Part shown: positions 11,377 to 17,273 of the stretch, piece by piece
How positions within the stretch are numbered: position 1 is the stretch's first letter
How the letters are laid out: each line of letters opens with the position of its first letter
NCBI GenBank assembly: GCA_024641545.1
Contig: JAHECW010000033.1
Location: 1-36,814 of the forward strand
From: Acidobacteriota bacterium
GTDB lineage: Bacteria > Acidobacteriota > Thermoanaerobaculia > Thermoanaerobaculales > Sulfomarinibacteraceae
Direction: 5' to 3'
Length of the DNA: 36,814 bases
The notes under the pieces: model-generated
Told to the model about the DNA's origin: nothing
Database searches by the model: none
Seen by the model: only the letters and a program-made list of their open reading frames with translations
Program-made: the position numbers and the translations under genes

Positions 11377-12909
11377 TCACTCCCACTCAATCGTTCCCGG
11401 CGGTTTCGAGGTCACGTCGTAGACGACGCGGTTGATTCCGCCGACCTCGTTGACGACCCTGCGGGCGATCCGGTCGAGGGTTTCGGGCGGGAAGCGGTAC
11501 CAGTCGGCGGTCATGAAGTCGGTGGTGGTCACGGCGCGGACGGCCAAAACCTCCTCATAGGTCCGGGCGTCGCCCATGACGCCCACCGACCGAACGGGAA
11601 GCAGGACGCAGAGCGCCTGGGAGATCTCGTCGTAGAGGCCATCGGCGCGGATCTCTCCGATGACGATGGCGTCGGCCTGCTGCAGGGTGGCAACCCTTTC
11701 GGGGGTGATCTCGCCCAGGATCCGCACCGCGAGTCCCGGCCCCGGGAACGGGTGGCGCCAGACGAAATCACGCGGCAGGCCGAGCTCCTCGCCCACCCTG
11801 CGAACCTCATCCTTGAAAAGATCGCGAAGGGGTTCGACGAGATCGAGACCGAGGCGTTCGGGCAGACCGCCGACGTTGTGATGGGTCTTGATCACCGCCG
11901 CGGTGCCGCGGACCCCGGAGGACTCGATGACATCGGGGTAGAGGGTGCCCTGGGCGAGGTACGCCGCATCCGGAAACCGGCGCGCTTCGGATTCGAAGAC
12001 CTCGACGAACTCGCGGCCGATGATCCGGCGCTTCTCCTCCGGGTCGGTGACGCCGGCCAGCGCACTGAAAAACCTCTCGCCGGCATCGACCCGGTCGAGA
12101 TCGATGCCGAAACCGGCGAAGTTCCGCATCACGGTGTCGCCCTCGTCCTTTCGCAGCAGACCGGTGTCGACGAAGATCGGCACGACCCGCTCTCCGATGG
12201 CCTCGCGGAGCAGGACGGCGGTCACCGACGAGTCGACGCCGCCGGATACGCCGCAAATCACCCGACCCTTCGGCAGCGCCGCGCGGAGCTGGTCGACGAG
12301 TTCGTTTCGGATCGCCACGGGGTCCCAGTCGCGACGGGCCCCGGCGAGCGCGATGAACCGTTCGAGCATGGCGGTGCCGTTGGGGGTGTGGCGAACCTCG
12401 GGGTGGAACTGGAGGGCCACCAGTCGGCGTTCCGGGTGGAACATGGCGGCGACCGGCGTGTTGGCGGTTCGAGCCAGCACTTCAAAGCCCTCCGGGACAC
12501 GGGTGACGAGATCGCCGTGGCTCATCCAGACGGTCTGCGACGCCGGGGTGCCCTCGAGGATCGAGGCGTCGGCGATGACATCGAGCTCGGCGAGACCGTA
12601 CTCGCGGTGGTCCGACGACTCGACGGAGCCGCCGAGGTCGCGCGCCATGAGCTGCATCCCGTAGCAGATTCCCAGGACCGGCACTTCGAGGTCGAAGACG
12701 GCCCGGTCGATCTGAAGCGCGCCGCGTTCGAAAACGCTCGCCGGGCCGCCTGAGAGCACGATGGCGATGGGATCGACCGCGCGGATCTCGTCTGCGGGGA
12801 TGTCGCCGCGTTCGATCATGGTCTTGACCCCGAGCTCGCGCAGACGCCGGGCGATGAGCTGGGTGTATTGGGAACCGAAATCCAGGATGAGGATGACCTC
12901 GTGGCGCAT
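11377..12909 (-). CDS. guaA: GMP synthase (glutamine-hydrolysing)
   Basis: 510 aa, full length. It converts XMP to GMP with ATP and glutamine in purine synthesis. The N-terminal class I amidotransferase domain has ILILDFGSQYTQLIARRLRE, the nucleophile elbow PVLGICYGMQ, and the His-x-Glu of LQFHPEVRHTPNG. The ATP-pyrophosphatase domain begins at VICGVSGGVDSSVTAVLLRE (P-loop SGGVDSS), and the C-terminal dimerisation domain ends in YDVTSKPPGTIEWE, the conserved GuaA terminus. The start is ATG 12909, with GGAGA 4 nt upstream; an upstream in-frame ATG near 12966 lacks support. It diverges from rex across 178 bp. Single-gene unit as far as visible. Confidence 0.97.
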   Translation of the reverse strand: MRHEVILILDFGSQYTQLIARRLRELGVKTMIERGDIPADEIRAVDPIAIVLSGGPASVFERGALQIDRAVFDLEVPVLGICYGMQLMARDLGGSVESSDHREYGLAELDVIADASILEGTPASQTVWMSHGDLVTRVPEGFEVLARTANTPVAAMFHPERRLVALQFHPEVRHTPNGTAMLERFIALAGARRDWDPVAIRNELVDQLRAALPKGRVICGVSGGVDSSVTAVLLREAIGERVVPIFVDTGLLRKDEGDTVMRNFAGFGIDLDRVDAGERFFSALAGVTDPEEKRRIIGREFVEVFESEARRFPDAAYLAQGTLYPDVIESSGVRGTAAVIKTHHNVGGLPERLGLDLVEPLRDLFKDEVRRVGEELGLPRDFVWRHPFPGPGLAVRILGEITPERVATLQQADAIVIGEIRADGLYDEISQALCVLLPVRSVGVMGDARTYEEVLAVRAVTTTDFMTADWYRFPPETLDRIARRVVNEVGGINRVVYDVTSKPPGTIEWE

Positions 12910-12989
12910 GGGCTCTCCATCGGCGGCAGACCGCAATGTACTGCAGCGGAGGATAACAGACGTCATGAGTCGCGGCTCCGACTCTTTGG

Positions 12990-13018
12990 TTGCACGCGGT
13001 GGATTTCAGGTCTAGAAT
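12990..13018 (+). promoter_or_regulatory. sigma-70-type promoter of rex
   Basis: TTGCAC (12990-12995), a 17-bp spacer and TAGAAT (13013-13018). Predicted transcription start is near 13025, inside the Rex operator. Confidence 0.75.
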
Positions 13019-13023
13019 CGAGC

Positions 13024-13041
13024 TTGTGAAATTGCCCACAT
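13024..13041 (+). promoter_or_regulatory. Rex operator (ROP) at the rex transcription start
   Basis: TTGTGAAATTGCCCACAT matches the Rex consensus TTGTGAA-N4-TTCACAA: the left half-site is perfect and the right half-site (CCCACAT) keeps the CACA core. It starts 6 bp after the -10 box, so bound Rex would block initiation. This predicts NADH-relieved autorepression of rex. Confidence 0.75.
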
Positions 13042-13091
13042 GGTCCGGACAAACGAATTCCAGCCGCGACCGAGAGCTGAGGAAGACATGA
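13026..13091 (+). other. possible 21-codon leaderless upstream ORF overlapping the rex start
   Basis: A GTG at 13026 lies 7 nt after the rex -10 box, the same spacing as at other leaderless starts here, and opens a 21-codon frame (MKLPTWSGQTNSSRDRELRK then one Thr). Its TGA overlaps the rex ATG as ATGA. It could be a leader peptide coupled to rex or a coincidence; the peptide resembles nothing I know. Confidence 0.25.
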
Positions 13092-13738
13092 CCGCCTACA
13101 AACGACACATCGACAACTCCGCGATCTCCGATCTCACCGTAGCTCGTCTATCGGTCTACCTCAGGTGCATGGACCGGCTTCTCGAGCTCGGGATCGAAAC
13201 CATTTCGAGCCAGGCGCTGGCGGACCGTTTCAACCTCAACTCGGCGCAGATTCGAAAAGACCTCGCCTACTTCGGCGAGTTCGGCGTCCGTGGCGTCGGT
13301 TACAACGTCCGCGAGCTCCGGCAGTATGTGATCGAAATCTTGGGTCTCGACCGCGAACGCCGGCTCGTCATCGTCGGCGCAGGCAACCTCGGGACGGCTT
13401 TGTGTCACTACTCCGGATTTTCCGGCGGCAATTTCCTGGTCGTCGGGATCCTCGATTCCGACCCGAGCCGAATCGGCGACCCGACCCCAGCGGGGCTGCT
13501 CGTCGAGGACGCCGCCCGGCTCGGCGAAATCGTGGCTCAACGGCGGGTGGAGATCGGGGTGATCACGACGCCCGCATCGGCGGCCCAGGCGGTCAGCGAA
13601 CAGATGGCCGCGGCCGGGTTGAAGGCGATTCTGAACTTCGCCCCGATCAGGGTCCGCGGCAACGAGGGTATTCTCGTCAAGACCGTGGATCTCGGCGTTC
13701 ACCTCGAAGAGCTGAGCTTTCACCTCACCCACGTGTGA
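13088..13738 (+). CDS. rex: redox-sensing transcriptional repressor Rex
   Basis: 216 aa. The N-terminal winged helix carries the Rex signature: TVARLSVYLRCMDRLLELGI, SSQALADRFNLNSAQIRKDL and YFGEFGVRGVGYNV. The C-terminal Rossmann domain has VIVGAGNLGTALCHYSGF (GxGxxG) and the conserved closing stretch ILNFAPIRV and VDLGVHLEELSFHL. Rex binds DNA when NADH is low and releases it when the NADH/NAD ratio rises, controlling fermentation and respiration genes. The start ATG 13088 has GAGG 5 nt upstream; an in-frame ATG at 13040 would add 16 residues, but it lies inside the operator and these residues are not Rex-like. A Rex operator overlaps the transcription start, so autoregulation is likely. 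Confidence 0.95.
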   Translation: MTAYKRHIDNSAISDLTVARLSVYLRCMDRLLELGIETISSQALADRFNLNSAQIRKDLAYFGEFGVRGVGYNVRELRQYVIEILGLDRERRLVIVGAGNLGTALCHYSGFSGGNFLVVGILDSDPSRIGDPTPAGLLVEDAARLGEIVAQRRVEIGVITTPASAAQAVSEQMAAAGLKAILNFAPIRVRGNEGILVKTVDLGVHLEELSFHLTHV

Positions 13739-13808: not shown

Positions 13809-15509
13809 ATGGACACCCCTAAGAGGATCGGCAAATATGAGGTTTCGGCGCAAATCGCGGCCGGGGGTTTCGGAGTCATCTTCAAGGGCTGGGATCCCTT
13901 CATCAAACGTCCCGTGGCGATCAAGATGTGCGCGTCTCCCGATGAGGAAGTGCGTCAACGGTTCCAACAGGAAGCGCAGTTCGTCGGCAACCTCGTACAC
14001 CGGAACATCACCCTGGTCTTCGACTTCGGTGTCGAGAACGGCATCCCCTACATCGTTCAGGAGTTTCTGACCGGTTACGACCTCGACCCGCTGGTCCACG
14101 CCGGAGTCGTCAAAGACACCCGGACCGTGGTTTCGATTTTGCTTCAGGTCTGCGAAGGGCTCGATTTCGCCCACAAGCGCGGCATCATCCACCGGGACAT
14201 CAAACCGTCGAACATCCGGGTGCTCGAGGACGGCACGGTCAAGATCATGGACTTCGGGATCGCCAAGTCCCTCGAAGGCGGCTCCAAGCTGACCCAGACC
14301 GGGATCGCGCTCGGCACCGCCGGATACCTCGCTCCCGAACAGATTCAAGGCGGCTCGGTCGACCCGCGCACGGATATCTTCTCCTTCGGCGTCGTGGCCT
14401 ACGAGCTGGCGACCGGCAAACGGCCGTTCGAGGGCGCCTCGCTGTCGAACGTCCTCTACCAGATTCTCAATGACGATCCCACCCAACCGACGGATCTCTC
14501 GGAGGAGGTCTCGCCCGAGCTCCAGCGGGTCATTCTCAAGTGCATGGCCAAGGACCCGGCGAATCGTTTCCAGACGGTGCGCCAGATCCTGGACGCCCTG
14601 CGTCTGGTCCCGGGCGCTATCGGCGCTGACGGTGATTCCCTGGTCGAGGTCACCACGGGAGTGCTTCGGGTGGCGGTATCCGCCATGCCTCACGTCAACG
14701 GAGGCGACGAACCGCCGACCCGCGATCTCTCCGGCATCGAAACCGGCAATGAGCGCACCGAAAAGGTGCCGACCGGCGGATCCGTCACCCAGCTGACCCG
14801 GACTCCCGAGATCGAGGAGGAGGAATCCGATCGTCGGAGCCCGGTTTTCGTGATCTTCCTCCTGCTGCTGGCCCTGGTGTTGGCCACGGGCGCAGCTCTC
14901 TATCTCTCAAAGGACGTTCAGAACCTGGTGTTCGGCGCCGAGGGACCGCCGTGGATTCCCACTCCGACACCGACTCCGACCGCAACACCGACCCCGTCGC
15001 CGACCCCGACAGAGACCCCGACTCTGGTCCCGACCGAGACCCCGGCGCCGGAACCGACCCCGACGCCCGCGCCGATCAGCGTGCGTCTCCACGTCGATCC
15101 GCCGGCGACGGTGGAGATCGACGGCCAGGTCTTCGACGGCGGCAAGAAGACCAGCGGCGGCCAGGTGGCGCTGCTGCCGGGGATGCACACATTCACGGTC
15201 TCGGTGCCCGATTTTCCGCCCAGAACCATCACCCGGCAGATCACCGGTTCGACCGGAACCATCGTGCTCAACCTCGATCTCGGGTGGCTGACGGTCATGG
15301 CGGACCCGGCGATCCGGCTGCCTGGGGGCGAGGTCTTCATCGACGGCAACAAGATCGGGTCGTTGCCCCTCATCCGCAAGAAGGTCTCGGCCGGAGCGCA
15401 CGAACTGGCGGTGCGGTGGCCGGGATCGGACAAGGCATTCCGACGGAACATCGAGATCCCGCAGGCGCCGGCGGAGCTGCGGTTGACGGTGGCGCCCGGG
15501 GGGAGCTGA
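13809..15509 (+). CDS. transmembrane Ser/Thr protein kinase with extracytoplasmic PEGA domains
   Basis: 566 aa. Hanks-type kinase domain, residues about 11-270, with every catalytic motif intact: IAAGGFGVIFKG P-loop, VAIKMC Lys, IIHRDIKPSNI catalytic loop, IMDFGIAKS (DFG), GTAGYLAPEQ and DIFSFGVVAYELATGKRPF. An acidic, Ser/Thr-rich juxtamembrane region (about 290-340) may hold autophosphorylation sites. One membrane helix (VFVIFLLLLALVLATGAALY, about 344-365) leads to a Thr-Pro repeat linker (about 383-419), a rigid wall-spanning type spacer, then one or two PEGA-like beta domains (VDPPATVEIDGQVFDGG; IRLPGGEVFIDGNKIGSLPL). It senses something outside and phosphorylates cytoplasmic targets, which are unknown. 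It may cooperate with the secreted TPR protein encoded next, but each appears to have its own promoter. Confidence 0.92.
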   Translation: MDTPKRIGKYEVSAQIAAGGFGVIFKGWDPFIKRPVAIKMCASPDEEVRQRFQQEAQFVGNLVHRNITLVFDFGVENGIPYIVQEFLTGYDLDPLVHAGVVKDTRTVVSILLQVCEGLDFAHKRGIIHRDIKPSNIRVLEDGTVKIMDFGIAKSLEGGSKLTQTGIALGTAGYLAPEQIQGGSVDPRTDIFSFGVVAYELATGKRPFEGASLSNVLYQILNDDPTQPTDLSEEVSPELQRVILKCMAKDPANRFQTVRQILDALRLVPGAIGADGDSLVEVTTGVLRVAVSAMPHVNGGDEPPTRDLSGIETGNERTEKVPTGGSVTQLTRTPEIEEEESDRRSPVFVIFLLLLALVLATGAALYLSKDVQNLVFGAEGPPWIPTPTPTPTATPTPSPTPTETPTLVPTETPAPEPTPTPAPISVRLHVDPPATVEIDGQVFDGGKKTSGGQVALLPGMHTFTVSVPDFPPRTITRQITGSTGTIVLNLDLGWLTVMADPAIRLPGGEVFIDGNKIGSLPLIRKKVSAGAHELAVRWPGSDKAFRRNIEIPQAPAELRLTVAPGGS

Positions 15510-15608
15510 GGACGAAGAGGCGCAGTGATCCGTCGCGTCATCGTGCGGTTGAACCGCAAGGACGCACGGGTCGCGAAGGCATCCGGCATCGTCATACGAC
15601 TCCCCTGC

Positions 15609-15638
15609 TTGCGGCGAGGACCGCTTCGCAGGTAAAGT
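15609..15638 (+). promoter_or_regulatory. promoter of the TPR gene, leaderless arrangement
   Basis: TTGCGG (15609-15614), 18 bp, TAAAGT (15633-15638), ending 6 nt before ATG 15645. No ribosome site is visible. Confidence 0.5.
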
Positions 15639-15644
15639 TGTCCG

Positions 15645-17273
15645 ATGATCAGGAAAGCTGCGCTCGTTTTTTGCCTCGTTGCCGTCATCGGCGCCGCGCT
15701 GCCCGCCTCGGCTCAAGAGAGCGCGACCACTCCGAGCGAGGAGGCCGCGATCCAGGCCTTTCGCCAGGGTTCGTTTTCAAAAGCGGTGGATCTCTACCGC
15801 CAGGGCCTCCAGGAGACCGATGATCCCGGTCACCGGGCCCGTCTCCACATCAACATCGCGTGGACGCTCTTTGCCCTCGGCCGGGAGGCCGAGGTCCAGA
15901 CGCACCTCCGCGCGGCGTTGGTCGAAGATCCGAATCTGACGCTGCTGCCGGACTACTACACCCAGGAGTTCATCGACCTCTTCGACCAGGCGCGGATGCG
16001 GGGCGTGACCGTCGACCCGTCGTCCCCACCCCCCGACCTCGAGGTCACCATCGCCGCGGTCGAGGCTCGAATGCTCGAGCGGAGCGACCTCGAGGGCGCC
16101 CTCGCCGATGTCGACCGGTTGCTCGTGAGCTATCCGGAGGACGGCAGGTTGATCCCTCTGAGGGCCGAGATCCTGAGAGATCTCGGGCTCGAGCAGGAGG
16201 CCGATGATCTTCTTCGAACCTACGGCGGCAATTTCACGCCGGGTACGTACGGAGATCGGATGTCGATCCCGGATCTGATTCTCCGCGCCAACCGCCTTCT
16301 TGAAGAGGGGGACGCCGGAACCAGTCTCGACCTCCTCCGCCAGGCCGTCGCGCGCCAGCCGAACAACGTCGCCGCCCTCGAGCTCATGGCGGAGGCGGCC
16401 CAACGCGGCGGGCATTGGGACGAGGCCGAGTTCGCCCTCAAGTCTGCGCTCGGCATGCAGCCCGGCAACGTCGGCCTCCAGCTCCGGCTCGGTGAGGTCT
16501 TCATCGCCAAGACGGAGCTCTCCGCCGCTCGTGACGTGTTCCGCGAGATCACCGAGCAGTCGCCTCACTCCGATCGCGGCTGGGCGGCGCTCGGTCTGCT
16601 CGAGGCACGGCTCGGTAACCGCGATCGCGCGCTCTCCCATCTCGACCGCGCCATCGAGGAGAACCCGCTCCTGCCCGAGGTTCAGCTGGCCAGGGGCGAG
16701 CTGCTCCTCGCCGTCGGTCTGGCGGCGCCGGCGACCGCGGCTCTCGAAGCCGCTGCCAACCTTCTCCGCGACGATGCCCAGCTCGAGGCACGGCTCGGCC
16801 AGGCGCTGCTCGCGTCCGGTCGGAACGCGGAAGCCCTCGAGCACCTGAGGACGGCCGTCGCGAGCGGATTCGCGCCCGATGATGTCGAACGCGCCCTGGC
16901 GCTGGCCCTCGCACTCAACGGCCAGAATGCCGAGAGCGAGAGGGTCCTCAGCCAGTCAGGGATCGCCAAGAACCTGGACACGGAGATCATCCGAGGCCTG
17001 CTGATGCTCGAACGATCGAGCTACGCCGCCGCGGAGGAGATTCTCCGCCCGGTCGCGACGGCCCGCGCAAACGAACCCGCGGTGCTCAATCTCTTTGCCG
17101 CCACGCTCTACAACCAGCGCCGTTATGCCGATGCCGTGGGCTATCTGGCAGGCGCCGAGGAGCTCAACCGGTCCATCGCGGACATCGTCTCCAACCTGGC
17201 GGTGGCGAGGGCGGCGCGCGCCGCCGAATTGCTTGCGGAAAACGCCGCCACGGTCAAGGCGGCGCCGCAGTAG
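15645..17273 (+). CDS. secreted tetratricopeptide-repeat protein
   Basis: 542 aa. A Sec signal peptide (MIRKAALVFCLVAVIGAALP, cleavage near ASAQE) precedes an alpha-solenoid. The first TPR pair (AIQAFRQGSFSKAVDLYRQG; ARLHINIAWTLFALGREAEV) is followed by a conserved-looking segment PNLTLLPDYYTQEFIDLFDQ and then about ten TPR-like helix pairs with typical W/L/G/A/P spacing, for example GWAALGLLEARLGNRDRALS and VLNLFAATLYNQRRYADAVG. The last 25 residues are Ala-rich. It probably acts in the periplasm as a protein-protein scaffold; partner unknown. It sits 135 bp downstream of the PEGA kinase gene in the same direction. The intervening DNA contains a GAACCGCAAGGACGCA-type stretch that looks like decayed repeat. 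Confidence 0.88.
   Translation: MIRKAALVFCLVAVIGAALPASAQESATTPSEEAAIQAFRQGSFSKAVDLYRQGLQETDDPGHRARLHINIAWTLFALGREAEVQTHLRAALVEDPNLTLLPDYYTQEFIDLFDQARMRGVTVDPSSPPPDLEVTIAAVEARMLERSDLEGALADVDRLLVSYPEDGRLIPLRAEILRDLGLEQEADDLLRTYGGNFTPGTYGDRMSIPDLILRANRLLEEGDAGTSLDLLRQAVARQPNNVAALELMAEAAQRGGHWDEAEFALKSALGMQPGNVGLQLRLGEVFIAKTELSAARDVFREITEQSPHSDRGWAALGLLEARLGNRDRALSHLDRAIEENPLLPEVQLARGELLLAVGLAAPATAALEAAANLLRDDAQLEARLGQALLASGRNAEALEHLRTAVASGFAPDDVERALALALALNGQNAESERVLSQSGIAKNLDTEIIRGLLMLERSSYAAAEEILRPVATARANEPAVLNLFAATLYNQRRYADAVGYLAGAEELNRSIADIVSNLAVARAARAAELLAENAATVKAAPQ

Follow-up and report, generated by a model that had tools for sequence, protein, structure and literature searches.

A probable Rex operator at the rex promoter of Ca. 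Sulfomarinibacteraceae, interpreted as a remnant of a deleted complex I operon

The window, i.e. the whole 36,814-nt stretch of DNA analysed here, contains an 18-bp box over the predicted start of rex, which we consider with good confidence to be a Rex operator, belonging to what was once the promoter of a complex I (nuo) operon and brought next to rex by two separate nuo deletions, with no leader peptide involved. The interpretation of this promoter-operator as a remnant of a deleted nuo operon is new with respect to the first-pass annotation of the same DNA. The regulatory element itself is of an ordinary kind, and its evolutionary history is moderately interesting. The family concerned is most likely Ca. 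Sulfomarinibacteraceae (FEB-10 in GTDB; PMC8528874).

The rex promoter and its operator

A match to rex was obtained in 116 of the 148 relatives searched. Stand-alone rex loci were found in two genera of the family, that of the window (g1, genomes G000-G002) and a second one (g7, genomes G008, G013, and G018), while the family's other genera, like the sister family, have rex directly after nuoN. The features of the region are the following:

11377..12909, minus strand: guaA, the divergent neighbour, found next to the box in G003 and G004 as well, where the nuo-rex operon is intact
12990..12995, plus strand: -35 hexamer TTGCAC, with a TTG-type hexamer at the equivalent place in relatives
13013..13018, plus strand: -10 hexamer TAGAAT, with TAGAAT, TAAGAT, TAGGAT, or TACGAT at the matching place in relatives
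13024..13041, plus strand: predicted Rex operator, TTGTGAAATTGCCCACAT, shared by six stand-alone rex promoters and by the nuoA2 promoters of nuo-rex operons
13026..13091, plus strand: 21-codon frame opened by GTG, judged a chance frame, conserved neither in length nor in frame
13076..13083, plus strand: ribosome-binding site region of rex, GCTGAGGA, whose GAGG is retained in g1 and g7 in the alignment
13088..13738, plus strand: rex, coding for a NAD(H)-sensing repressor of 216 aa, with domain, equivalog, and structure matches
13809..15509, plus strand: gene for a Ser/Thr protein kinase, conserved 3' of rex across the family

The two hexamers are separated by 17 bp, and 5 bp lie between TAGAAT and the box. 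As sigma-70 elements they are weak, with 8 of 12 consensus bases, and the promoter was not called by a consensus promoter scanner. Although weak, they are conserved in position: a TTG-type -35 is present 17 bp 5' of the -10 in G001, G002, G008, G013, and G018, as well as in most nuoA2 promoters. In both the rex and the nuoA2 promoters the box is placed 4-6 bp past the -10 hexamer, which is a promoter-blocking position.

Compared with the symmetric Rex consensus TTGTGAAANNTTTCACAA, TTGTGAAATTGCCCACAT matches at 12 of 16 positions, and this match is unevenly distributed, with 8/8 in the left half and 4/8 in the right half; relative to TTGTGAA-N4-TTCACAA the halves give the same 8/8 and 4/8, with the spacing and the outer CAC retained. 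No other site in the window reaches a score of 12, and 0.175 sites with this score or a higher one are expected per 36.8-kb window under a first-order Markov model. The exact sequence TTGTGAAANNNNNCACAT occurs once in the 5.38-Mb genome, at the box, and allowing up to 3 mismatches the 18-mer likewise has a single occurrence in the window and a single one in the genome. Across 20 related genomes the TTGTGAAANNNNNCACAT pattern gave 17 matches, and its reversed control none.

Within the family six stand-alone rex loci were found, each carrying TTGTGAAA-N5-CACATG 4-5 bp past the -10; among them the spacing from box to ATG varies, whereas the box and promoter are conserved. In the genomes where nuo and rex are linked, the box sits before nuoA of a nuoA-N (complex I) operon that ends in rex. 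This nuoA2 promoter box reads TTGTGAAAATGG(C/A)CACAT in G003, G005, G007, G009, and G010, is slightly altered in G004 (TTGTGAAAACGGCCACGA), and is TTGTGAATTTGGGCACGA or near it in the sister family. When 17 sites were compared, positions 2-7 and 14-16 were invariant, and the right inner half was never TTT. In more distant Acidobacteriota and in Rokubacteria the search for boxes before rex gave mostly none, with scattered matches only (L168, L202, and L217).

On this sequence evidence the box at 13024-13041 is very probably a functional Rex operator, and most of what the first-pass annotation had proposed for it stands. The match to the Rex box is confirmed, at 12 of 16 consensus positions and with conservation in relatives; the perfect left and degenerate right half-sites are real, and this asymmetry recurs at all 17 sites; and the conservation upstream of rex that the annotation had suggested looking for is found at the six stand-alone loci and in the nuo-rex operons. 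The hexamers, the 17-bp spacer, and the box were correctly described, but 5 bp, and not 6, separate the -10 from the box. The predicted redox autoregulation is well supported by comparison, considering the position of box and promoter, the ancestral box of the nuo-rex operon, the bona fide Rex, and a plausible regulon. In Staphylococcus aureus, sites with mismatches or with G/C in the spacer are bound by Rex with lower affinity (PMC2883068), and for this reason the box is likely to be an operator of moderate affinity; that the weak right half-site serves to tune affinity is plausible.

A terminator-like hairpin is found on the plus strand at 12967-12984, in the guaA-rex intergenic region just 5' of the rex -35. 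On the other side, the Ser/Thr kinase gene is followed by a gene for a TPR-repeat protein (the two spanning 13809-17273); the kinase gene is next to rex across the family, the TPR gene comes next in several genomes (L110, L111, and L112), and both possibly form one transcription unit with rex.

Loss of the nuo2 block

In G003 and G004, each on a single contig, divergent guaA is followed by the box, nuoA to nuoN, rex, and the Ser/Thr kinase gene. At the loci of the window, G001, G002, and g7 the order is divergent guaA, box, rex, and kinase, with an extra 262-codon frame between guaA and the box in G013. The nuo block, which takes up about 10.7 kb in G003, is thus absent between box and rex in g1 and g7, which retain the box and the GAGG of rex but show no conservation of the sequence between them.

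Orthologs of the NuoG2 and NuoN2 proteins of G003 are 57-68% identical in the nuo-linked genomes (NuoG2 of G011 being a 52% fragment). In contrast, only distant paralogs were found in the seven g1 and g7 genomes searched, namely three of g1 (91-99% complete) and four g7 drafts (79-90% complete), where NuoN matches have at most 40% identity and long NuoG matches at most 36%. Relocation of nuo2, rather than its deletion, was rejected on the grounds that g1 and g7 have only these distant paralogs. The second nuoA of G000 (contig C282) was also considered as a moved nuo2 and rejected, as it belongs to a different cluster and is without the box. No rex was found in G016, of g7, probably owing to an assembly gap.

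The grouping of the stand-alone loci into one clade is rejected by the trees of GuaA (p-AU 0.0025), of the kinase (p-AU 0.0020), and of the GuaA, kinase, and Rex concatenation (p-AU 2e-5). In these three trees g7 groups with G003, which retains nuo2. Since the flanking-gene trees reject a single origin, two separate deletions would have given rex this promoter, and the simplest reading of the sequences is that nuo2 was deleted independently in g1 and in g7. We therefore find it probable that the family lost nuo2 at least twice, each time leaving its Rex-controlled promoter before rex, so that the former last gene of the operon became a directly autorepressed regulator, with the asymmetric operator sequence retained.

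A history in which g1 and g7 share a single ancestral deletion of nuo2 and G003 reacquired it, or in which one genus received the stand-alone locus from the other, would agree with the close likeness of the two rearranged loci and with the Rex tree, which by itself is compatible with a single clade (p-AU 0.116). However, a single origin is rejected by three of the four trees, and G003, the sister to g7, has nuo2 in the ancestral place and order, which makes this alternative unlikely.

The regulator and the start of rex

The rex product matches both PF06971 and PF02629 over their cut-offs, and the NCBIfam equivalog NF003993 with 239 bits (cut-off 217). Its residues 14-213 align, at nearly full length, with solved Rex chains, the closest of which is Rex from Thermotoga maritima (PDB 5zz5 and 7wb3, E 1.9e-54), a different organism, compared here at the level of the protein. 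The genome search gave a single copy of rex. By family, the protein encoded at 13088-13738 is a Rex repressor, for which NADH-sensitive binding is predicted.

The spacing of the box, TTGTGA-N6-nCACAn, is also that of CRP-type sites, with which TGTGA-N6-TCACA is shared, so a regulator of the CRP/FNR family might instead control rex and nuo from it. We consider this improbable: none of the 17 sites has the T of the right-hand TCACA, and both halves of a CRP-type site are thus nowhere seen together, whereas the A after TGTGA, typical of Rex, never varies and 12 of the 17 keep AAA. Moreover, the boxes belong to rex and to the operon of which it was formerly part, and the candidate targets in the genome are Rex-like (see below).

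The small frame within the operator is, as judged by comparison of sequences, a coincidence. The first-pass annotation had proposed, as a possibility, a leaderless leader peptide that begins with the GTG at 13026 and whose translation would be coupled to that of rex by an ATGA. The 21-codon frame does exist in the window, where its TGA (13089-13091) overlaps the ATG of rex (13088-13090), and G002 has a counterpart of 20 codons, but it is not conserved in the relatives. Its lengths in the six loci are 21, 11, 20, 11, 37, and 19 codons, with stops ranging from -37 to +46 relative to the rex ATG; the distance from GTG to ATG is 62, 61, 65, 70, 65, and 67 nt, and as it varies between 61 and 70 nt the frame is not kept. 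These are frameshifting differences between relatives, which the annotation itself had named as evidence against its proposal. In addition, the GTG is part of the operator and is present in every TTGTGA half-site, the overlapping TGA is unavoidable because rex starts with ATGACC, the second codon beginning with A, and when leaders are shuffled roughly half of them remain open over 19 codons. The leader peptide is thus not supported, and we give it very little credence.

Equally hard to sustain is a start of rex at the in-frame ATG at 13040, inside the operator, which would yield a protein of 232 aa; this start was rejected. G000, G002, and G008 do have an open frame in phase with rex from that ATG, but in G001, G013, and G018, three of the six loci, it is out of phase. 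A GAGG ribosome-binding site precedes 13088, and the members of the family share the MxxYKR start.

Proposed mechanism and relation to known systems

In the mechanism we propose, the 18-bp box would act as an operator over the transcription start of rex, predicted to lie within the box. By analogy with characterised Rex proteins, a Rex dimer, NAD+-bound or in the apo form, would bind the box and block RNA polymerase, and NADH would release it, such that Rex would repress its own gene and a rise in NADH would induce that gene. The same promoter-operator would originally have driven the complex I operon, in the order divergent guaA, box, nuoA to nuoN, rex, and kinase, and one operator would then have controlled complex I and rex jointly. 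Loss of all nuo genes from the stretch that separated the box from the ribosome-binding site of rex, which synteny, gene absence, and the trees indicate to have happened separately in g1 and g7, would have placed rex directly behind the box, leaving the operator in control of rex alone, and possibly of downstream genes too.

Rex of Streptomyces avermitilis represses rex, nuoA1-N1, and hppA (PMC5355995). In Streptomyces (rex-hemACDB, nuoA1-N1, and hppA) a TTGTGAA-type 18-bp inverted repeat is likewise present at the rex promoter and at a complex I promoter. There, however, rex leads the haem operon, apart from nuo, whereas the rex of the window was formerly the last gene of a nuo operon, a deletion gave it the operator of that operon, and this operator has a degenerate right half-site. 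The S. aureus sites, TTGTGAAW4TTCACAA (PMC2883068), agree with the box in the sequence of the half-site, in spacing, and in their placement around the promoter, but are symmetric with an A/T-rich spacer, whereas the box has G/C in the right inner half, from which a lower affinity is predicted.

The locus offers a sequence-level example of how the control region of a regulator can outlive its operon, the structural genes being deleted and the operator and regulator kept. A further prediction from it is that uncultured marine Acidobacteriota, of a family known for sulfate reduction, have a Rex regulon. The main comparative study of Rex regulons is reportedly that of Ravcheev et al. 2012; a text search, the coverage of which leaves out most subscription papers, found no paper on Rex regulons in Acidobacteriota.

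Candidate regulon

The regulon was sampled by pattern searches, part of the candidate targets coming from the asymmetric pattern and part from the symmetric motif, and sites with 2-3 mismatches are candidates only. With up to 3 mismatches, and with palindromic matches counted once, the symmetric Rex motif gave 15, 12, and 7 distinct sites in G000, G001, and G002 (34 in total), against 0, 1, and 0 (1 in total) for a reversed control motif.

One candidate box precedes a gene for 3-hydroxyacyl-CoA dehydrogenase, followed by acetate kinase (ackA). The dehydrogenase box is seen in two genera (G000 C15:22016, L034; G002 C136:26510, L116; and, in g7, G008 C393:2391, L103), and the succession of the two genes in G000. 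Further candidate boxes belong to H+-pyrophosphatase, POR-family (pyruvate-ferredoxin-type) oxidoreductases, malic enzyme, monomeric isocitrate dehydrogenase, APS reductase, and a second nuo operon. Two Rex-like boxes lie 5' of the APS reductase genes in G000 (C134:2511 and C134:2768; L048 and L049), which, if true, would link sulfate reduction to redox control.

In nuo1, the other complex I operon, of most family members, including g7 (L070, L071, L074, L078, and L080), TTGTGAAA-NN-ATTGACAA overlaps the -35. This element is lost in the window's genus (L064, L066, and L062, of G000, G001, and G002, respectively), and G000 and G001, though not G002, have TTATGCTATTTTTCACAA farther 5' of the nuo1 promoter instead. 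In the sister family (L100, L101, and L102), TTGTGAAAAAA(G/A)ACACAT is conserved shortly before a gene that, judged by eye, resembles one for an Lrp/AsnC-type regulator.
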